Of a stretch of DNA of 46,476 nucleotides, positions 16,721 through 32,928 are shown piece after piece (position 1 is the first letter of the stretch; every line of letters begins with the position of its first letter). Source of the stretch: Steroidobacteraceae bacterium. GTDB lineage: Bacteria; Pseudomonadota; Gammaproteobacteria; Steroidobacterales; Steroidobacteraceae. A program made the translations under genes and the position numbers. Below the pieces are notes generated by a model. It did no database searches, was not told the DNA's origin, and worked only from the letters and a program-made list of their open reading frames with translations. Location of the stretch: NCBI GenBank assembly GCA_019634915.1, contig JAHCAN010000020.1, forward strand, positions 1 to 46,476. The letters are read 5' to 3'.

Positions 16721-17731
16721 TCACTGGCCTCTGGCGAGGCTGTCCTGGGAGGGGCTGGGGGGACGCGAGCGGCGCAGCCGCTCCTCGACCTTGACGGCCT
16801 GCTGGCCGCGCGAGACGCCGAAGCCGCCGCGGAACAGCGGCACCTCCTCGACGAGCACGGTGGCCTGGCCGTTGAAATCGCAGGGCACGATGTCGCCCGG
16901 CTTCAGGTTCAGCAGCTGCGCGAGCGAGAGCTGCGCGCGGCCGAGCAAAGTCTTGATCTGCACCTCGGCGTCCTCGATCTCCTCGCGCAACGTGTGCAGC
17001 CAGCGCTCGTCGTGCTCGGCGCGGTCGCTCTGCACGCCCGAATCGAGCACGTCGCGCAGCGGCTCGATCATCGAGTACGGCAGCGTCACGTGCAGGTCGC
17101 CGCCGCCGCCGTCGAGGTCGACGTGGAACGAGGTGATCACGACCACCTCGGTCGGGCTGACGATCGTTGCGAAGTGCGGGTTCACCTCCGAGGAGAGGAA
17201 TTCGATTTCGATCGGCGCGATGTGCGACCACGCCTCGCGCAGGTCGGCGAACACGCTCTTCAGCAGCATGTGGATCACGCGCGACTCGGTCGCCGTGAAG
17301 TCGCGGCCCTCGATCTTCGCGTGCCGGCCGTTGCCGCCGAAGAAGCTGTCGACGATCGCGAACACGAGCGACGGGCCGAGCACGACGAGACCGGTGCCGC
17401 GCAGCGGCGCGACGCGCACCAGGTTCAGGCTGCTCGGCAGGTGCAGCGTCTGCACGTACTCGCCGAACTTGCGCATCTGCACCGGCCCGACCGACACGTC
17501 GAGCGAGCGGCGCAGCAGGTTGTAGATGCTGGTGCGGAACAGGCGCGCGAAGCGCTCGTTGATCATCTCGAGCGTCGGCATGCGCCCGCGCACGATGCGC
17601 ATCTCGTTGCCGAAGTCGTACGGGCGTGCCTCGCCCGGTGGCGGCGGCGGATCGGTGCCGACGGCACCGCTGTCGACGCCATAGAGCAGCGCGTCGACCT
17701 CGTCCTGGTTCAGAATCTGCTGGCCCGACAT
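16721..17731 (-). CDS. fliM: Flagellar motor switch protein FliM
   Basis: FliM is the C-ring protein that receives phospho-CheY. The 336 residues begin with the CheY-binding peptide ILNQDEVDALLYGV (about 5-18). The middle domain begins near RMPTLEMINERFARLFRTSI and includes the GGxG-type loop region SFFGGNGRHAKIEGRDFTATE. A C-terminal SpoA domain (LLNLKPGDIVPCDFNGQATVLV) follows. It starts 13 bases after fliL. Confidence 0.96.
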   Translation of the reverse strand: MSGQQILNQDEVDALLYGVDSGAVGTDPPPPPGEARPYDFGNEMRIVRGRMPTLEMINERFARLFRTSIYNLLRRSLDVSVGPVQMRKFGEYVQTLHLPSSLNLVRVAPLRGTGLVVLGPSLVFAIVDSFFGGNGRHAKIEGRDFTATESRVIHMLLKSVFADLREAWSHIAPIEIEFLSSEVNPHFATIVSPTEVVVITSFHVDLDGGGGDLHVTLPYSMIEPLRDVLDSGVQSDRAEHDERWLHTLREEIEDAEVQIKTLLGRAQLSLAQLLNLKPGDIVPCDFNGQATVLVEEVPLFRGGFGVSRGQQAVKVEERLRRSRPPSPSQDSLARGQ

Positions 17732-17744
17732 GACGGCGCGGCTC

Positions 17745-18224
17745 CTACTGCATCACGAAGCTGGTGAAGTAGACCGCCTCGATCGCGTCGGGCTTGCCGC
17801 CCTCGCGCGCGGCGACGGCTCGCAGCGTGTCGAGGGCGCGCGCGCGCAGCGCCTCCTTGCCTTCGGGCGTCGCGATCACCGCGTACTGCTGGTTCGAGAG
17901 CAGCATCAGCAGGTCGTTGCGCACGACCGGATCGTGCTGCTTGATGAATTCGATCGCCTGCGGATCGCGGCTCATCACCTCGACGGTGACCTGCAGGAAG
18001 CGCACGAGCTGCTCGGCCTCGAAGTTGACGACGAATGCCGGGTCGAGCTTGTAGTACAGCGCCGGCTGCGGTTTCGGGGCGGCCGGCGCGTCGTGCGCTC
18101 CACCCTTCAGGTACCAGGCGCCGCCGGCACCGCCGCCGACGACGAGCAGCAGCAGCACGATCCACAGGAGTTTCTTCGACTTCGCCGGTGGCGCGGCGGG
18201 GGTTTCGGCCTGGGTTTCGGACAT
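17745..18224 (-). CDS. fliL: Flagellar basal body protein FliL
   Basis: FliL surrounds and supports the stator. I chose the ATG at 18224, giving 159 residues, because GAGGAAG lies at ribosome-site distance and the protein then starts with a short cytoplasmic tail. A transmembrane helix follows at about 19-40 (KKLLWIVLLLLVVGGGAGGA), then a periplasmic domain with LDPAFVVNFEAEQLVRFLQV. The longer frame to 18359 runs through the promoter. In this genome fliL is separated from fliK by a 6.1 kb block with a metabolic cassette, so it has its own sigma-54 promoter at 18269-18284. Confidence 0.94.
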   Translation of the reverse strand: MSETQAETPAAPPAKSKKLLWIVLLLLVVGGGAGGAWYLKGGAHDAPAAPKPQPALYYKLDPAFVVNFEAEQLVRFLQVTVEVMSRDPQAIEFIKQHDPVVRNDLLMLLSNQQYAVIATPEGKEALRARALDTLRAVAAREGGKPDAIEAVYFTSFVMQ

Positions 18225-18268
18225 CTCGACGGCTTCCTCGGGCAAACGCATGCGATCGCGCGAGGTCG

Positions 18269-18284
18269 TGCAAGGCCGATGCCA
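18269..18284 (-). promoter_or_regulatory. Sigma-54 promoter of fliL-flhA operon
   Basis: Read on the minus strand, the element is TGGCATCGGCCTTGCA. The GG and GC dinucleotides are separated by exactly 10 bases, and it matches TGGCAC-N5-TTGCA at every position but one. Transcription would start near 18258, leaving a leader of about 35 bases before the fliL ATG with its GAGGAAG site. In Pseudomonas the fliL operon depends on RpoN and FleQ/FleR-type activators, which are also encoded here. The rest of the 198-base gap (18225-18422) shows only a short GTGTG/CACAC repeat at 18342-18359. Confidence 0.82.
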
Positions 18285-18422
18285 GAGGCGCGTCGGCCCA
18301 CGCAAGTCCATGAAATTACGACGGTAAGCTGACCCGGGGCAGTGTGACGGAGCGCACACGAGGCCGGCGCGACGGAAGATTGGCGCCCTGCGGCAACCGC
18401 CTCCTCCGGGCCGGCGAACCGA

Positions 18423-19835
18423 TCACCGCACGATCAGGTCGATCAGCCATTTCGCCTTCGAATAAGGCGGCCTGAGCAGATCGGCACCGCTGCGCCGCGC
18501 CTGCCACAGCACCGGCAGCAGTTTGCTCATCGCGTCGAAGCCGGCGCGGCCGTGGCAGGCACCCATGCCGCTGGCGCCGACACCGCCGAACGGCAGGCCG
18601 GCGATGGCGAAATGCAGCAGCGTGTCGTTGACCGCGACGCCGCCGGCGACCGTGTCGTGCAGGATCCTTTCGATGCGCGCGCGATCGTGGCTGAACGGAT
18701 ACAACGCCAGCGGGCGGTCGCGCCTGTTGATGCAGGCGATGGCCTCGTCCAGCGTCCGGTAACTCCTGACCGGCAGCAGCGGGCCGAAGATCTCCTCCTG
18801 CATCACCCTCGCGTCATCGCCCGGCTCCAGCAGCACGGTCGGCGGCAGCAGGCGCTGCGCCGGGTCGGCGCTGCCGCCCAGCGTGACGATGTCGATGCCG
18901 CGCTGCCTGGCGTCGTCGAGACAGCCCTGCAGGCGCGCGTACTGGCGCTCGTTGATGATGCGGGTGTAATCGCCGGGATTGTCGAAGTCCGCGCCGTAGC
19001 GCGCCCGCACCTCGCCGCGCAGTGCCTCGACCAGGGCGTCGCGCTTGCCGGCCGGGACCAGCACGTAATCGGGAGCGATGCAGGTCTGGCCGCCGTTGAA
19101 CCACTTGCCGGTGGCGATGCGCGCGGCGGCCTTGTCGATCGGGTAGTCATCGCAGACCAGCGCCGGCGACTTGCCGCCCAGTTCCAGCGTCAGCGGCGCG
19201 AGGTTGGGCGCGGCGGCGGCCATCACCTTGCGGCCCACCGCGGTGGAGCCGGTGAACACCAGGTGATCGAACGGCAGCGCCGCGAACGCCGCGCCCACTT
19301 CCGCGCCGCCGGTGGCGACGGCGACGCGGTCGGCCGGGAACACCTCGGCCAGCAGCTCGCGCAGGAACGCGCTGGTGTGCGGCGTGTGTTCGGACGGTTT
19401 CAGGCAGGCGTGGTTGCCCGCGGCGATCGCCGTCGCGAGCGGCACCAGCGCCAGGTTGACCGGATAGTTCCACGGCGCGATCACGCCGACCACGCCGAGC
19501 GGCACCGGGCGCAGCTGCGCGCGCGCCGGCAGGAAGCGCCAGCCCACGCCGACACGGCGCGGCTTCATCCAGCCGCGCAGATGCCTGACGAGATGGTCGA
19601 TGTCGTTCAGCACGGTCATGCCGTCGGCGATGCGGCTTTCGTCCAGCGAGCGGTGGCCGAAGTCGAGCGCGATCGTGCGCGCCATTTCGTCCAGCCGCCG
19701 CTTCAGCGCCGCGCGCAGGCGACGCAGGTCGTCGCGTCGCTGCGCGTAACCCGGCTTGTTCGCCTGCCAGGCGGCACGCAGGCGTTCCAGCGTCGAGTAC
19801 AGTTCGGCGGTCGGTGTGTCGGCGCGCATGTCCAT
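18423..19835 (-). CDS. Coniferyl-aldehyde-dehydrogenase-like NAD(P) aldehyde dehydrogenase
   Basis: This enzyme would oxidise an aldehyde to a carboxylic acid with NAD(P)+. The 470 residues cover a complete ALDH fold. Asn123 is in PWNYPVN, Lys146 in LKPSEHTP, the catalytic base Glu218 in LELGGKSP and the nucleophile Cys252 in FNGGQTCIAPDYVLV. The motif around the cysteine and the short length resemble the coniferyl aldehyde dehydrogenase subgroup, which acts on aromatic or hydrophobic aldehydes. It is in the same orientation as the flagellar genes but unrelated to them. It is divergent from a three-gene oxidoreductase/ThDP operon across 65 bases. ATG at 19835 or 19829 are both possible. Confidence 0.9.
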   Translation of the reverse strand: MDMRADTPTAELYSTLERLRAAWQANKPGYAQRRDDLRRLRAALKRRLDEMARTIALDFGHRSLDESRIADGMTVLNDIDHLVRHLRGWMKPRRVGVGWRFLPARAQLRPVPLGVVGVIAPWNYPVNLALVPLATAIAAGNHACLKPSEHTPHTSAFLRELLAEVFPADRVAVATGGAEVGAAFAALPFDHLVFTGSTAVGRKVMAAAAPNLAPLTLELGGKSPALVCDDYPIDKAAARIATGKWFNGGQTCIAPDYVLVPAGKRDALVEALRGEVRARYGADFDNPGDYTRIINERQYARLQGCLDDARQRGIDIVTLGGSADPAQRLLPPTVLLEPGDDARVMQEEIFGPLLPVRSYRTLDEAIACINRRDRPLALYPFSHDRARIERILHDTVAGGVAVNDTLLHFAIAGLPFGGVGASGMGACHGRAGFDAMSKLLPVLWQARRSGADLLRPPYSKAKWLIDLIVR

Positions 19836-19900
19836 CCACGGCAGTGTAGTCGGGTAAGCTCCTGCCCAGGAATCGGATCACGACGGGGAGATGGACGCAC
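19836..19900. promoter_or_regulatory. Divergent promoter region of metabolic cassette
   Basis: Only 65 bases separate two divergent genes, so both promoters must lie here or inside the genes. On the minus strand TACACT is a plausible -10 with TTCCTG 18 bases upstream as a weak -35. On the plus strand nothing better than TAAGCT is seen. The plus-strand gene has a clear GGGGAGA ribosome site. No clear operator palindrome was found, and no regulator gene accompanies the cassette. Confidence 0.4.
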
Positions 19901-21514
19901 ATGGCGCAAACGCGCCGCGCCGACGTGCTGGTGGCGGGTGGTGGACTGGCCGGCCTCGTGACCGCGCTGGAATGCCTGCGCGGTGGCCTGCGGGTCACCG
20001 TGGTGGACCGTGACACGCCCGCGCGCCTCGGTGGCCTCGCGCTATGGGCCTTCGGCGGCATGGCCCTGGTCGACACGCCGCTGCAGCGGCGCAGGAAGAT
20101 CGCCGATTCGCCGCAGCTCGCGTTGCGCGACTGGATGAGCTTCGGCGAACTGGACGAGGCGGACACCTGGCCGCGGCGCTGGGCCGAATACTATGTGGAG
20201 CATTCGCGCGCGCGGGTGTACGACTGGCTGCTGGCCCAGGGCATCAGCTTCTTCCCGGCGGTCAACTGGGTGGAACGCGGTTACTCCGGCGAAGGCAACA
20301 GCGTGCCACGCTATCACCTGGTCTGGGGTACTTCACGCGAACTGGCCCGGCGCATGATCCAGGCCATGCACGCAGCCGGCAGCGACGGGCGGTTGACCGT
20401 GCTCAGCGGGCACCGCGTCGTCGCCATCGACAGCGCAGGTGGCAGGATCTCGGGGGCGCAGGTCGAGCGGGAGGCCACGGGCGAAGTGCTGCGCATCGAA
20501 GCGCCGGTGGTGACGCTGGCCATGGGCGGCATCAACGGCTCGCTCGGGCAGGCGATCGCGAACTGGCCGGCCGACCGCCCGCGCCCGGCCGAAATCCTCA
20601 ACGGTGCCCATCCCTACGCCGACGGCAGGCTGCACCGACTCGTCGCCGACGAACTCGGCGGCCGGCTGACCCACGTCGGCGAGATGTGGAACTACGCCGC
20701 CGGCATCCCGCATCCACAGCCGCACTTCCCCGGCCATGGCCTGTCGTTGATTCCGTGCAAGTCGGCGCTGTGGCTCGACCACCGCGGCCGGCGGATCGGT
20801 CCCGTGCCGCTGGTCACCGGCTTCGACACCCGCGACCTGTGCCGGCGCGTGTCCGCGCTGGACGGCGCCTGGACCTGGCACCTGCTGAACCGGCGCATCG
20901 CGGCGCGGGAGCTCGCGATTTCCGGTGCCGAGCACAACCCGCGCATCCGCGACCGGCAGTTCCTGCGCTTCGTGCTGGAAACGATGCTCGGCAGCGCTCG
21001 CCTGGTCGAACGGATGCAGCGCGAGAGCCGGCACTTCCTGGTCGACGACAGCCTTGGAGGACTGGCGGCAAAGATGAACGCGCTGGCCGGCACCGGTGAC
21101 ATCGACCCGGCGACGCTGCAGGCGACCGCCAACGCCTTCGACGCCCATTTCAGTCATGGCTCCTCGCCGGAAGGCGACGAGCAGATTCGCCGCATCCTGC
21201 AGGCGCGACAGTGGGGTCCCGACCGGTTGCGCACCTGCAAGCCGGCGCCGCTGCAGGCGAAGGGCGCCGGGCCCTACATCGCGATCCAGACCCGGCTCAT
21301 CACCCGCAAGAGCCTGGGTGGCCTGCAGACCGATCTGCAGAGTCGGGTGCTGCGCGCCGATGGCAGCGCGGTGCCTGGCCTGTACTGCGTCGGCGAAGCA
21401 TCCGGCTTCGGCGGCGGCGGCGCCAACGGCAAGCGCTCGCTGGAAGGCACGTTCCTGCCGGGCTGCATCCTGACCGCACGCGCGGCGGCGGCCTCGATCG
21501 GCGAGGGTGGCTGA
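19901..21514 (+). CDS. FAD-dependent dehydrogenase, KstD/fumarate-reductase-like
   Basis: This is a 537-residue flavoprotein of the FAD_binding_2 family, which includes 3-ketosteroid dehydrogenases and fumarate reductase flavoproteins. Residues 8-38 form the dinucleotide-binding fold VLVAGGGLAGLVTALECLRG. The family's FAD-closing C-terminal motif is LYCVGEASGFGGGGANGKRS, followed by LEGTFLPGC. The substrate cap lies between about 150 and 400. No signal peptide or heme domain is present, so it is probably cytoplasmic and uses an unknown electron acceptor. Its stop shares a base with the next start (TGATG). Substrate unknown; desaturation next to a carbonyl is the usual chemistry of such enzymes. 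Confidence 0.87.
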   Translation: MAQTRRADVLVAGGGLAGLVTALECLRGGLRVTVVDRDTPARLGGLALWAFGGMALVDTPLQRRRKIADSPQLALRDWMSFGELDEADTWPRRWAEYYVEHSRARVYDWLLAQGISFFPAVNWVERGYSGEGNSVPRYHLVWGTSRELARRMIQAMHAAGSDGRLTVLSGHRVVAIDSAGGRISGAQVEREATGEVLRIEAPVVTLAMGGINGSLGQAIANWPADRPRPAEILNGAHPYADGRLHRLVADELGGRLTHVGEMWNYAAGIPHPQPHFPGHGLSLIPCKSALWLDHRGRRIGPVPLVTGFDTRDLCRRVSALDGAWTWHLLNRRIAARELAISGAEHNPRIRDRQFLRFVLETMLGSARLVERMQRESRHFLVDDSLGGLAAKMNALAGTGDIDPATLQATANAFDAHFSHGSSPEGDEQIRRILQARQWGPDRLRTCKPAPLQAKGAGPYIAIQTRLITRKSLGGLQTDLQSRVLRADGSAVPGLYCVGEASGFGGGGANGKRSLEGTFLPGCILTARAAAASIGEGG

Positions 21515-22692
21515 TGGCACTGCGATTCCCCGCCACCGCGCAGGACTATCGCCGCCTCGCCGTGGCACGGCTGCCGCACTTCCTGTCCGACTACGTGGAC
21601 GGCGGCGCCGGCGACGAGCAGACCCTGCGTGCCAACGAGGCCGCCTGGGCCAGGGTACGGTTGCGCCAGCGCGTGCTGGTCGACGTCGACGGCGTGGACA
21701 CGAGCGCCACTTTGGCCGGACAGGCCTGCGCGATGCCGCTGGCGCTGGCGCCTTTGGGGCTGGCCGGAATGCTGGCGCGCCGCGGCGAAATGCAGGCCGC
21801 GCGCGCGGCCGAGGCCGCGGGCGTGCCCTTCACGTTGTCCACCGTGGGCATCTGCCCGCTGAAGGAAATTCAGCTCGCCGTGGCAAGGCCGGTCTGGTTC
21901 CAGCTCTACATGCTGCGCGACCGCGGCATCGTGCAGGCATTGCTGCAACATGCCTGGGATGCGGGCTGCCGCACGCTGGTGTTCACCGTGGACCTGCCGT
22001 TGCCCGGCATGCGCCACCGCGATACCCGCCATGGCTTGGGCGCGGGCACGTTGCGCGCCCGCATGCTCAGGATCGCGGACCTGCTGTCCCATCCCGGCTG
22101 GGCCTGGGACGTGGGCGTGCGCGGCAAGCCGCACCTGTTCGGCAGCCTCGCCGGGCAGCTGCCCGACGCGCGCGACCTCGACGCATTCAAGGCCTGGGTG
22201 GACCGCCAGTTCGATCCGTCGGTCACCTGGGCCGACATCGACTGGCTGCGCGGGCAATGGCCGGGCGTGCTGCTGCTCAAGGGCATCCTCGACGAAGACG
22301 ACGCGCGCGCGGCGGTGAGCGCCGGTGCGCAGGGGCTGGTGGTCTCGAACCACGGCGGGCGACAACTGGACGGCGTCGCCGCGACCGCGGCGAGACTGCC
22401 GGCCATTGTCCAGGCGCTGGGCGCGCAGGTCGAAGTGCTGGTCGATGGCGGCATCCGCAGCGGTGTGGACGTGCTGCGGGCGCTTGCGCTCGGCGCGCGC
22501 GGCGTGCTCGTCGGTCGCCCGTGGGCGTGGGCACTCGCCGCGGGAGGCGAGCGCGCACTGGCCGCGCTGCTCGCGTCCTGGCAGCAGGAACTGCGGCTCG
22601 CCATGACCCTGGCCGGCGTGCGTCGCCTGGCGGACATCGGCGCCGGCCAGCTGGATCTTTCCCGCTTCGACGACGAGGAGACGACGAGATGA
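21514..22692 (+). CDS. FMN-dependent alpha-hydroxy-acid dehydrogenase/oxidase
   Basis: This enzyme would oxidise an alpha-hydroxy acid to the alpha-keto acid. The 392 residues match the LldD/mandelate dehydrogenase/glycolate oxidase family. FMN and substrate residues include Tyr27 (SDYVDGGAGDE), Asp160 (FTVDLPLPG) and Lys256 (LLLKGIL). The catalytic His280 and Arg283 are in VSNHGGRQLDG, and the phosphate-binding end is VDGGIRSGVDVLRALALGA with GRPWAWAL. It is coupled to the flavoprotein gene in front (TGATG) and the ThDP gene behind (ATGA). The natural substrate (lactate, mandelate or larger) cannot be read from sequence. Confidence 0.92.
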   Translation: MALRFPATAQDYRRLAVARLPHFLSDYVDGGAGDEQTLRANEAAWARVRLRQRVLVDVDGVDTSATLAGQACAMPLALAPLGLAGMLARRGEMQAARAAEAAGVPFTLSTVGICPLKEIQLAVARPVWFQLYMLRDRGIVQALLQHAWDAGCRTLVFTVDLPLPGMRHRDTRHGLGAGTLRARMLRIADLLSHPGWAWDVGVRGKPHLFGSLAGQLPDARDLDAFKAWVDRQFDPSVTWADIDWLRGQWPGVLLLKGILDEDDARAAVSAGAQGLVVSNHGGRQLDGVAATAARLPAIVQALGAQVEVLVDGGIRSGVDVLRALALGARGVLVGRPWAWALAAGGERALAALLASWQQELRLAMTLAGVRRLADIGAGQLDLSRFDDEETTR

Positions 22693-24353
22693 ACGGCGCG
22701 CAGGCCTTGATGAAAACCCTCGCCGATGCGGGCGTGAGCGTGTGCTTCAGCAACCCCGGCACCTCCGAGATGCACTTCGTGGCCGCGCTGGACCGCGAGC
22801 CACGCATGCGCGCGGTACTGACCCTGTTCGAGGGTGTCGCCACTGGCGCGGCGGATGGCTATGCGCGCATGGCGGGCAGGCCCGCCGCCACGCTGCTGCA
22901 TCTGGGGTGCGGCCTCGGCAACGGCCTGGCCAACCTGCACAACGCGCGCAAGGGCCGCGTGCCGGTGGTCAACATCGTCGGCGACCACGCCACCTACCAC
23001 GTCAAGTACGACGCGCAGTTGCAGTCCGACATCGAAACGGTCGCACGCAACGTATCCACCTGGGTACGGACCTCTGCGTCCACCGGCGCGCTGGGCGACG
23101 ACGCGGCGCAGGCGGTGGCGGCCGCGATGGGACCACCGGGCCAGGTCGCCACGCTGATCCTGCCGGCCGACGTGTCCTGGAGCGAGGGAGGCATGCCTGC
23201 GCTGCCGCTGCCGATGGCCTCGCCGCCCGTGGCCGAAGAGGCCACGATCGATGCCATCATCCAGGCTCTTCGCAGCGGCGGCCGCACCGCGCTGCTGCTT
23301 GGCGCGAGGGCGCTGCGCGAACCGGGCCTGCTGGCGGCCTCGCGGATCGCTGCGCACACGGGCGCCGGGCTGTTCGCCGAAGTATTCCCGACCCGGATCG
23401 AGCGCGGCGCCGGCCTGCCGCACGTCGAGCGCCTGGCCTACTTCGCCGAGCTGGCCGCAGTGCAGCTGCATGGACTCGAGCACCTGATCCTGGTCGATGC
23501 CAAGTCGCCGGTGTCGTTCTTCGCCTATCCGGGCAAGGCCAGCGACCTGGTTCCCGAAGGCTGCACGGTGCATACGCTGGCCTCGCCCATCGAAGATGCA
23601 CTGGGCGGATTGCAGCGGCTCGCGACCCGCATCGGCGCCGACGCGGCGGCGCCCGTGCTGCAGGCACCCGTCCGCCCCGACCGGCCCAGGGGCAAGCTCA
23701 CCGCCGAGAAAGTGTGCAAGGCCGTGGGCCACCTGCTGCCCGAGCGCGCCATCATCGTCGATGAAGCCCAGACCTCCGGGGTGCTGCTGCCGCATTTCAC
23801 CCGCGGCGCGCCACGCCACGACGTCGTCACGCTGACCGGCGGCGCGATCGGCCAGGGCCTGCCCAACGCGGTGGGCGTCGCGATCGCCTGCCCGGACCGG
23901 CCGGTGCTGGCGCTGGTGGGCGATGGTTCGGCGATGTACACCCTCCAGGCGCTGTGGACGATGGCGCGCGAGAAACTGAACGTCACGACCATCGTCCTCA
24001 ATAACCGCTCCTACGCAATCCTCAACGTGGAACTGCAGCGCATGGGTGCGACCGGCAGCGGCAACGGTGCGGGGGAGAAGGCGCGCGCGCAGCTGGAGCT
24101 GGGCAATCCCGGTCTCGACTTCGTGCGGATGGGCGCCGGCATGGGCGTACATGCCGTGCGCGCCACCACCGCCGACGAACTGGTCGACGCGCTCGACTAC
24201 GCGCTACGCGCGCCGGGACCGCACCTGATCGAGGCGGTGGTGCCGAGCGCATTCTCGGGGCTGAAACTGCGCCTGCTGCCGCACGTGCTCGGTTCGCTCG
24301 CCAGGCTGCCGCAGCCGCTGGCGCGGGCGCTCAAGCGCAAGGTCTCCCCGTGA
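22689..24353 (+). CDS. ThDP enzyme, acetolactate synthase/benzoylformate decarboxylase superfamily
   Basis: This is a 554-residue thiamine diphosphate enzyme. The N-terminal Pyr domain has CFSNPGTSEMHFVAAL and the activating Glu48 in LTLFEGVATGAADGYARM. A central domain follows. The C-terminal PP domain has the ThDP/Mg motif beginning GDGSAMYTLQALWTMA (about residue 411) and ending VLNNRSYAILNVE. Such sequences are often named acetolactate synthase large subunit, but no small subunit is nearby. Next to an alpha-hydroxy-acid dehydrogenase and an aldehyde dehydrogenase, decarboxylation of a keto acid (as by MdlC) or a carboligation is as likely. The stop codon is one base from the fliK stop on the other strand. 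Confidence 0.9.
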   Translation: MNGAQALMKTLADAGVSVCFSNPGTSEMHFVAALDREPRMRAVLTLFEGVATGAADGYARMAGRPAATLLHLGCGLGNGLANLHNARKGRVPVVNIVGDHATYHVKYDAQLQSDIETVARNVSTWVRTSASTGALGDDAAQAVAAAMGPPGQVATLILPADVSWSEGGMPALPLPMASPPVAEEATIDAIIQALRSGGRTALLLGARALREPGLLAASRIAAHTGAGLFAEVFPTRIERGAGLPHVERLAYFAELAAVQLHGLEHLILVDAKSPVSFFAYPGKASDLVPEGCTVHTLASPIEDALGGLQRLATRIGADAAAPVLQAPVRPDRPRGKLTAEKVCKAVGHLLPERAIIVDEAQTSGVLLPHFTRGAPRHDVVTLTGGAIGQGLPNAVGVAIACPDRPVLALVGDGSAMYTLQALWTMAREKLNVTTIVLNNRSYAILNVELQRMGATGSGNGAGEKARAQLELGNPGLDFVRMGAGMGVHAVRATTADELVDALDYALRAPGPHLIEAVVPSAFSGLKLRLLPHVLGSLARLPQPLARALKRKVSP

Positions 24354-24354
24354 G

Positions 24355-25293
24355 CTACGCGTAGAGGTCGAGCAATCCGACGCGCACGCGCGCCGGCGTC
24401 GCCGCCTCGCCCTCCGGCGCATCACTACGCGACAACCCGCGCAGCGCATGATGGGAGGCCTGGGTCTCGCCGCCGCGCGGATCACGCCCCGAGACATCGG
24501 CGTGCGTCAGCTGCAGGCCCTGCGAGGCGAACATCTCGCGCAGCCGCGGCAGCGCCTGTTCGAGCGCGGCGCGCGTGTCGGCATGGCTCGCGCCGAACGA
24601 CACGACCGCCTCGTCGCCACGCACCGCGATGTGGACCTCGAGAGGGCCGAGATGCGCGGGCGACAGGCGCAGCGACGCGGCCTGCACCCCGTCCTTCGCG
24701 AGCCACACGAGGCGCGCGGAGAGCTCATCGGACCAGCCGGGCGTGCCGACCTGCGAGGACAGCGGCGCCGTATGGCGCGCGATCGCGCCGGCATCGTGCC
24801 CAGTCGTCGATCGCAGCGCGCCCGGCAGGTCGGCGGCCGCCGCAGGCAGCGCCTCGGGCGCGTCCTCGCGTGCGGGCGTGTGCCCCGGCGCGACGGTCGC
24901 CATGGCCGCCTCCTCTGCGGACGTCGACGCCTGCGGCGTCGCCAGTGCGGCCTGCCACTCGGCCTCGATCGATTGCAGCGCCGTCTCGATCGCCTCCGGC
25001 GGCGGCTGCGCGACGGCGGGCGGCGTCACGATGACCGGCCGTGCGAGCACCGCCGTCAGGATCGGCAGCGGCAAGGCGGCCGACGCGGCGGACGCATCGG
25101 GCGACTCCGTCGCCTCGTCCGCCTCGTCATCACCGGCGACCGCGCCCGCGGCGAGCGCCAGCGCTTCGTCGAACCCCTCGCCGGCCACAGCCGTATCGGC
25201 CGTCTCGTCCGGTGACGGTGTCGCGGTCGCGGCTGGCGCCGGCTTCGCCGGCGCCGTGACTATCGTCGGCATCATGCTGGTATCCCGTTTCAT
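24355..25293 (-). CDS. fliK: Flagellar hook-length control protein FliK
   Basis: FliK is the exported ruler that stops hook growth and triggers the FlhB switch. From the ATG overlapping the fliJ stop (ATGA) it has 312 residues. The N-terminal two thirds are Ala/Pro/Thr-rich and poorly conserved. The C-terminal domain is clear: SLRLSPAHLGPLEVHIAVRG, then ALEQALPRLREMFASQGLQL. It ends LLDLYA. It is the last gene of the fliE-K run and meets the ThDP enzyme gene tail to tail with one base between stops; no terminator fits between them. Confidence 0.93.
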   Translation of the reverse strand: MKRDTSMMPTIVTAPAKPAPAATATPSPDETADTAVAGEGFDEALALAAGAVAGDDEADEATESPDASAASAALPLPILTAVLARPVIVTPPAVAQPPPEAIETALQSIEAEWQAALATPQASTSAEEAAMATVAPGHTPAREDAPEALPAAAADLPGALRSTTGHDAGAIARHTAPLSSQVGTPGWSDELSARLVWLAKDGVQAASLRLSPAHLGPLEVHIAVRGDEAVVSFGASHADTRAALEQALPRLREMFASQGLQLTHADVSGRDPRGGETQASHHALRGLSRSDAPEGEAATPARVRVGLLDLYA

Positions 25294-25736
25294 CGGTTGC
25301 TGCGCAGGTGGTGCAACTGTCGCGCGCGCTCGTCCGTCTCGTTCTGCTCGCGGCGCTCGAGCGCGGCGCGCTCCTCCGCCCGCCAGCGCTCCACCACGTG
25401 ATCGACCGATTTGGCGCGTTGCGCCGCGCGGCGCCATTCCTCGTACGCGCGACCGCGCGTGCGGCGCGTGTCTGCGACGATCGCGGCCTGCGCCTCGATC
25501 GCCTGCCCGAGGCGCGCGAGGAAAGCCTGGTAATCGCGCAGTCCGGTCGCGCTGATGCCGCCCGCGATGCGCCGGCCGAGGCCGTCCGCATACTCGGCCC
25601 GGTAGGCTTCGAGGTCGGCGAGGCGCCGCTCGGCGTCGTGCACGAGCCGGTCGGTCTGAGCGAGCGCGGCCGCGCGCTCGTCCTCCTCGTGGCTGACCGC
25701 ACGCACCACCGGCTGCATGCGTTTCACGCGCGTCAC
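25290..25736 (-). CDS. fliJ: Flagellar export chaperone FliJ
   Basis: FliJ is the central stalk of the export ATPase and links FliI to FlhA. The 148 residues are almost entirely charged alpha-helix, consistent with the two-helix coiled coil of the family ([19 protein letters not shown]; then [20 protein letters not shown]). Identification rests on that pattern and on its position between fliI and fliK. It overlaps fliI and fliK by four bases each. Confidence 0.92.

Positions 25737-31737: not shown

Positions 31738-32928
<1,191 letters not shown>

Follow-up and report, generated by a model that had tools for sequence, protein, structure and literature searches.

Between fliK and fliL, the flagellar gene cluster of a Steroidobacteraceae bacterium (assembly GCA_019634915.1) holds four enzyme genes that, we conclude with high confidence, were acquired horizontally into this seam. 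The window analysed here is the whole of contig JAHCAN010000020.1 (46,476 nucleotides (nt); C13 in our numbering), from a draft genome of 2.78 Mb in 58 contigs that is 78.64% complete with 1.02% contamination, and a minus-strand flagellar cluster occupies it. The four genes (18423-24353, hereafter the cassette) encode an aldehyde dehydrogenase (ALDH), a flavin adenine dinucleotide (FAD)-binding dehydrogenase, a flavin mononucleotide (FMN)-dependent 2-hydroxy acid dehydrogenase and a thiamine-diphosphate (ThDP) enzyme, and are called ALDH, FAD, FMN and TPP below.

With moderate confidence, we favour an account in which the cassette is foreign and composite, lies at the fliK-fliL seam with the putative fliL promoter spared and supports mandelate-like chemistry. 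After the split from G001, the nearest relative among the genomes compared, a segment of about 6 kb would have landed with one end at the fliK stop codon and the other short of the sigma-54-type fliL promoter, bringing a foreign, coupled FAD-FMN-TPP operon together with a divergent ALDH gene that derives from another source. Transcription of fliL and its downstream genes appears to have a sigma-54 promoter of its own, so the insertion would leave the order and regulation of the flagellar genes workable.

Layout and origin of the cassette

An earlier note on this DNA, made from the sequence alone, placed four enzyme genes in a 6.1-kb gap between fliK and fliL and took three of them to be the only plus-strand genes in the window. 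Pfam and the coordinates bear out the first statement, and the second holds among the genes called, since all calls beyond the cassette fall on the minus strand; the gene caller was a rough script that overlooked fliK and TPP. The last gene before the insert is fliK (24355-25437, minus strand; PF02120), and the first after it, about 6.1 kb away, is fliL (17745-18224, minus strand; PF03748 domain at 17748-18056), whose start codon at 18224 was placed by eye and by comparison with congeners. ALDH (18423-19835, minus strand; PF00171) is class-3-like by its solved-structure matches and is divergent from the other three genes, 65 nt from FAD. On the plus strand follow FAD (19901-21514; PF00890), with a predicted fumarate reductase/3-ketosteroid dehydrogenase fold, FMN (21514-22692; PF01070, FMN_dh), which is lactate-dehydrogenase-like, and TPP (22689-24353), which by Pfam and fold model is benzoylformate-decarboxylase-like with a conserved C-terminal tail. 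All four proteins score far over the main Pfam cut-off. FAD, FMN and TPP overlap through their start and stop codons (at 21514 and at 22689-22692), which suggests one translationally coupled operon, and TPP converges with fliK, 1 nt separating the two stop codons (24353-24355). To the resolution that comparison with congeners allows, the inserted segment runs from 18386 to 24354: on the fliL side, DNA alignments extend to 18385-18386 for G001, G002 and G004 and stop at 18285-18313 for G003, G005 and G006, and on the fliK side the congener alignments end between 24342 and 24359.

The acquisition that the earlier note had proposed is supported by gene distribution, by identities set against RpoB and by three gene trees. 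No orthologue of TPP or FAD was found in any of the six congeners. Across 217 genomes of the family, TPP exceeds 70% identity in four, namely the window's own, G179, G030 and G183 (partial in the last), and the stretches around the match in these other three gave no FAD, FMN or flagellar match; FAD exceeds 51% identity in the window's own genome alone. The best matches to TPP in the contig database, among the best 80 loci, are instead L034 (88%) and L035 and L037 (83% each). The order FAD, FMN, TPP recurs in L034 (83, 84 and 88% identity) and in L035, and L037 holds FAD and TPP. RpoB, by comparison, is 72.7% identical to that of the window's genome in the L034 genome and 66.9% in the L037 genome, as against 93.9-95.0% in the congeners G001, G002, G006 and G003 (G003 over 911 residues); an RpoB search gave no match in G004 and G005. 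None of the best 80 TPP loci has a FliL, FliK, FliM or FliI match at E 1e-10, and a FliM search of the L034 genome gave no match. Phylogenies of the enzymes, which the earlier note had called for, join the window with L034 at Shimodaira-Hasegawa-like approximate likelihood ratio supports of 92 for TPP (88 rows), 99 for FMN (30 rows) and 100 for FAD (76 rows); these are quick trees without bootstrap, and the TPP value lies below the program's mark of 95. The set around the pair also includes L035 and, for TPP and FAD, L037. Trees and distribution are thus in conflict with organism relationships, as in a horizontally acquired operon, and the pattern that would have spoken against acquisition, the same genes at this place across the order with congruent phylogeny, was not seen.

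ALDH has a different set of relatives. Its matches within the family reach 52%, and orthologues at 68-72% occur in three of 350 genomes of the class, all three in family f28. Around these orthologues, FAD, FMN and TPP gave no match in any of the three 17-kb loci, and the cassette is therefore probably composite, with at least two sources, that of ALDH differing from that of FAD-FMN-TPP.

Composition sets the cassette apart from its neighbours and not from its genome. The earlier note had seen by eye a lean to ACC, GTG and AGC/TCC codons relative to the flagellar genes. In the codon comparison that it suggested, the fractions in cassette and flagellar neighbours are.58/.44 for ACC,.56/.45 for GTG,.26/.08 for TCC,.30/.49 for TCG,.48/.23 for GAA and.19/.42 for CTC, so that the lean stands for ACC, GTG and TCC against TCG and fails for AGC, which is used alike (.38/.37). 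Against 211 genes of similar length from the same genome, picked by the codon script, ALDH falls at the 93rd percentile, FAD at the 65th, FMN at the 60th and TPP at the 56th. The tetranucleotide distance of the cassette exceeds that of all 12 flank windows tested but ranks at the 87th/78th percentile among 160 windows of the genome. Since both measures are within the genome's own range, the cassette differs from its neighbours without being anomalous for the genome, and we rejected the idea of an island of atypical composition. Either the donors were similar in composition or a difference has been smoothed over time.

Enzymes and proposed chemistry

Family models and predicted structures narrow the identity of the enzymes to differing degrees. 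FMN passes the PRK11197 subfamily cut-off (489.1 bits vs 376) and misses that of LldD, the FMN-dependent L-lactate dehydrogenase (NF033901; 435.7 bits vs 550). TPP passes the cut-off of the PRK07586 'acetolactate synthase' equivalog (787.5 bits vs 363). Its model (mean predicted local distance difference test score, pLDDT, 84.7; 20 sequences) matches benzoylformate decarboxylases with query-normalised template-modelling scores of 0.72-0.78 among the 50 matches listed. Histidine H71, which we take to occupy the position of the His70 of benzoylformate decarboxylase, is invariant among the aligned orthologues. The tail of TPP comprises about 35 residues (about 520-554; window 24246-24353), is basic and is conserved over 83 aligned sequences (L034-L113), whereas the tblastn segments of four displayed paralogues end short of it; being amphipathic in appearance, it may bind the membrane. 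FAD misses the PRK12834 FAD-binding dehydrogenase equivalog (444.1 bits vs 476), and its model (mean pLDDT 81.5; 17 sequences) matches flavocytochrome c, 3-ketosteroid dehydrogenase, urocanate reductase and cyclohexanone dehydrogenase. ALDH falls short of the cut-off in all 25 NCBIfam models that were listed (of 41), which sets it apart from the class-3 aldehyde dehydrogenases that it otherwise resembles, its best solved-structure matches including fatty aldehyde and class-3 enzymes.

In the mandelate pathway (mdlBCD), mandelate dehydrogenase, benzoylformate decarboxylase and benzaldehyde dehydrogenase act on a 2-hydroxy acid and its products. The cassette likewise adjoins an FMN-dependent 2-hydroxy acid dehydrogenase, a benzoylformate-decarboxylase-like ThDP enzyme and an aldehyde dehydrogenase, and we lean slightly towards a mandelate-like route from 2-hydroxy acid to 2-oxo acid, aldehyde and acid. 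The FMN enzyme would oxidise an L-2-hydroxy acid to the 2-oxo acid, the ThDP enzyme would decarboxylate this to an aldehyde one carbon shorter, and ALDH would oxidise the aldehyde to the acid. The FAD enzyme probably dehydrogenates, or reduces, a carbon-carbon bond next to a carbonyl, either upstream or alongside. The cassette departs from the mandelate pathway in having an FMN enzyme that is nearest to lactate dehydrogenases, in the added FAD dehydrogenase and in the conserved C-terminal tail of the ThDP enzyme.

A second likeness is to Variovorax paradoxus, in which the IlvX-named VPARA_05550 (IlvX and PRK07586 share the name acetolactate synthase large subunit) lies, by locus number, near Fox (VPARA_05580); in the portions of PMC6370202 consulted, Fox is reported as a 2-hydroxy acid dehydrogenase, and deletion of an acetolactate synthase gene had no negative phenotype on thiodipropionate. 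The likeness of this pair to TPP and FMN is one of name and locus number, and the literature listings contained no paper describing the Fox sequence.

The neighbourhoods of TPP in other genomes, counted over the best 80 loci, place FAD within 6 kb in 72, FMN in 27 and ALDH in 7. An AraC-type cluster occurs somewhere in the locus in at least 31 of these and a GMC-type cluster in at least 11 (one representative of each assigned by Pfam); both counts are lower bounds because the gene picking overlooked genes, having found FMN in 17 loci where the later count gave 27. We had expected ALDH to be a fixed partner of TPP, an idea rejected on its seven loci. On these gene neighbourhoods we read the module as a putative FAD-ThDP pair with exchangeable oxidation steps; it is widespread, and nothing in the literature found bears directly on its function. 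In L103 (9087-9962) and L110 (9132-10001), a sodium/bile-acid symporter family protein or a short-chain dehydrogenase precedes TPP in the place of FMN.

The constancy of this pair favours the best-surviving alternative, which we nevertheless hold unlikely: that the cassette does not serve a 2-hydroxy/2-oxo acid pathway at all, and that FAD and TPP form a core acting on a ketone or a steroid-like ring, TPP being a carboligase or carbon-carbon lyase and FMN and ALDH accessory. The 3-ketosteroid and cyclohexanone dehydrogenases among the matches of the FAD model, and the PRK07586 assignment of TPP, fit such a core. However, among the matches listed the TPP fold is closest to benzoylformate decarboxylases and H71 is kept, the biosynthetic acetolactate synthase cut-off is not reached (TIGR00118; 124.4 bits vs 538.35), and the FMN partner is of the 2-hydroxy acid type.

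Several points weigh against the mandelate-like reading and the wider account of which it is part. TPP and ALDH lie below the cut-offs of the named members of the mandelate pathway, at 211.5 bits vs 493 for the benzoylformate decarboxylase equivalog PRK07092 and 315.1 bits vs 550 for the benzaldehyde dehydrogenase equivalog MdlD. In 53 of the 80 loci (some of which are truncated by the end of the contig) no FMN gene was seen close to TPP, and in 73 no ALDH gene, which makes neither step a fixed one of the module. The four genes include no regulator or transporter. As to origin, the composition of the cassette is not the atypical one of a horizontally acquired operon, and because the window's genome is incomplete and good quality (completeness of 90% or more, contamination of 5% or less) is reached by just 114 of the 217 genomes of the family, single absences carry little weight.

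The fliK-fliL boundary and the putative fliL promoter

The insert ends upstream of a sigma-54-type -24/-12 site, TGGCATCGGCCTTGCA, at 18284-18269 on the minus strand, the sole exact match to the pattern in the window, and fliL therefore probably keeps its putative promoter. All seven members of the genus share such a site upstream of fliL. Over the 31 fliL upstream regions scanned, 29 score 10 or 11 of 11, comprising all of a set of 27 and two of four added regions (G023 and G118, both 11; in G208 and G207, where the upstream stretch available is just 188 and 43 nt long, the scores are 7 and 6), and scores of 10 or 11 arise in 3 of 2040 stretches of 390 nt from the window's own genome. A relaxed pattern allowing one mismatch gives four matches in the window where 1.44 are expected, and the three inexact ones lend no support to further promoters. 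Passages of PMC6120874 on Pseudomonas describe FleQ with RpoN as activating the fliLMNOPQ operon and list fliK and fliLM as separate, likely FleQ-regulated units. Together with the conserved site, this indicates that the insert probably occupies the space between one transcription unit and the next.

The earlier note held that fliK is followed directly by fliL in related loci, which is usual and not universal. The two genes adjoin directly in five of the six congeners. In the sixth, G004, the gap contains a TonB-dependent receptor and a short-chain dehydrogenase (L141:5689-9397) unrelated to the cassette, the latter with a best match of 59% in the rest of the family. A tree of FliI, FliM and FliL makes the window's genome (G000) sister to the compact G001, with supports of 100/99, and puts G004 in another clade, a pattern most simply explained by an insertion in each of the two lineages. 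A survey of the family, in which 150 rows each were listed for fliK and fliL, gave at least 104 same-strand pairs from 99 of the 217 genomes; 15 opposite-strand pairs were set aside, and 31 fliL rows had no fliK on the contig. Among the pairs listed the median domain gap is 528 nt, with 82 of 104 at 1300 nt or less and 19 over 2 kb. In genus g7 (eight genomes) the pairs are 16-22 kb apart and may be rearranged clusters; of these, L260 was inspected.

The contents of eleven gaps, long or fairly long, were inspected (L251-L261). Among chosen genes, Pfam identifies the cargo as CrcB, GNAT, GH43, FAD_binding_4, alpha/beta hydrolase, DsbA-like, aquaporin, glyoxalase, pyridoxal phosphate (PLP) enzyme, histidine kinase, aldo/keto reductase, AMP-binding enzyme and M13 peptidase. 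In five genomes of genus g4 (L251-L255) the fliK-fliL gap is taken up by 6-10 kb of mixed cargo, and in all five CrcB-like and GNAT-like genes adjoin fliL by eye (Pfam was run on L253 only). At the other flagellar junctions of 10 genomes, gaps exceed 1300 nt in 7 of 280 instances and 2 kb in four (in G200, flhB-flhA and the junction that follows the homologue of 31738-32928; in G033, the latter junction and one other). This control is small and not random, its genomes having been picked for long contigs, and it cannot rate fliK-fliL itself because G004, G198 and G200 were picked for their cargo there. In G200 (L277, L278) flhB and flhA are about 14.4 kb apart, and the homologue of 31738-32928 has a 7.6-kb gap next to it. 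The idea that cargo avoids tightly packed junctions was dropped, since this same flhB-flhA junction measures 12-53 nt in G001, G004, G006 and G016.

From these data, fliK-fliL looks like one of a few cargo-taking places, perhaps the commonest, and falls short of a strict hotspot. They suggest that promoter layout sets a seam, in an otherwise strongly conserved cluster, that has taken in metabolic genes of unrelated kinds more than once. Non-flagellar genes inside flagellar clusters are a comparable case of foreign genes within a conserved cluster; here they sit at the fliK-fliL boundary and recur within one family, and none of the titles and abstract openings surveyed dealt with cargo at this seam. 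It is doubtful that the boundary is a general docking seam of the family for metabolic cargo, made safe by the sigma-54 promoter of fliL, with the cargo wired to the motility programme.

Three further explanations of the insert are less probable still. That a mobile element, since decayed, directed the insertion is improbable, even though the inserts of the window and of G004 lie at nearly the same point and, in L034, the FAD gene begins about 140 nt past a tRNA-Pro gene (L034:6991-7210). The earlier note reported no integrase, insertion sequence or tRNA; a tRNA scan of the window likewise found no tRNA, and four enzyme genes fill the insert. The borders of a classical genomic island are lacking too, since the repeats listed (20 of the 27 direct families and 25 of the 34 inverted ones) include none that brackets the insert. 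A plasmid vehicle was considered and rejected, as 37 of the 38 plasmid records with a TPP match are below 60% identity. An assembly chimera, in which a catabolic fragment was joined into a flagellar contig, is conceivable in a draft as fragmented and incomplete as this one but very improbable: the flagellar genes on both sides continue in the order of G001, both joins fall at gene ends, a different genome, G004, has cargo at the same seam, and codon use and tetranucleotides fall inside the genome's own range. Least probable of all is a cassette ancestral to the genus or family and lost elsewhere, for although several genera have cargo of some sort at the seam and the stretch beside fliL resembles that of G004 by eye, TPP and FAD are missing from all six congeners and FAD from the 216 other family genomes, three trees group the genes with L034 and other outside bacteria, and the FliI, FliM and FliL tree would demand repeated losses.

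On the same doubtful reading of the boundary as a docking seam, the convergence of TPP with fliK would have a consequence of its own. In 17700-24800 we found no terminator (shuffled sequences give 2.3) and no sigma-70 promoter (shuffles give 0.3). With the fliK and FAD-FMN-TPP operons ending so close together and no terminator-like site found, read-through of each would be antisense to the other. If so, catabolism and flagellar assembly would tend to be mutually exclusive.

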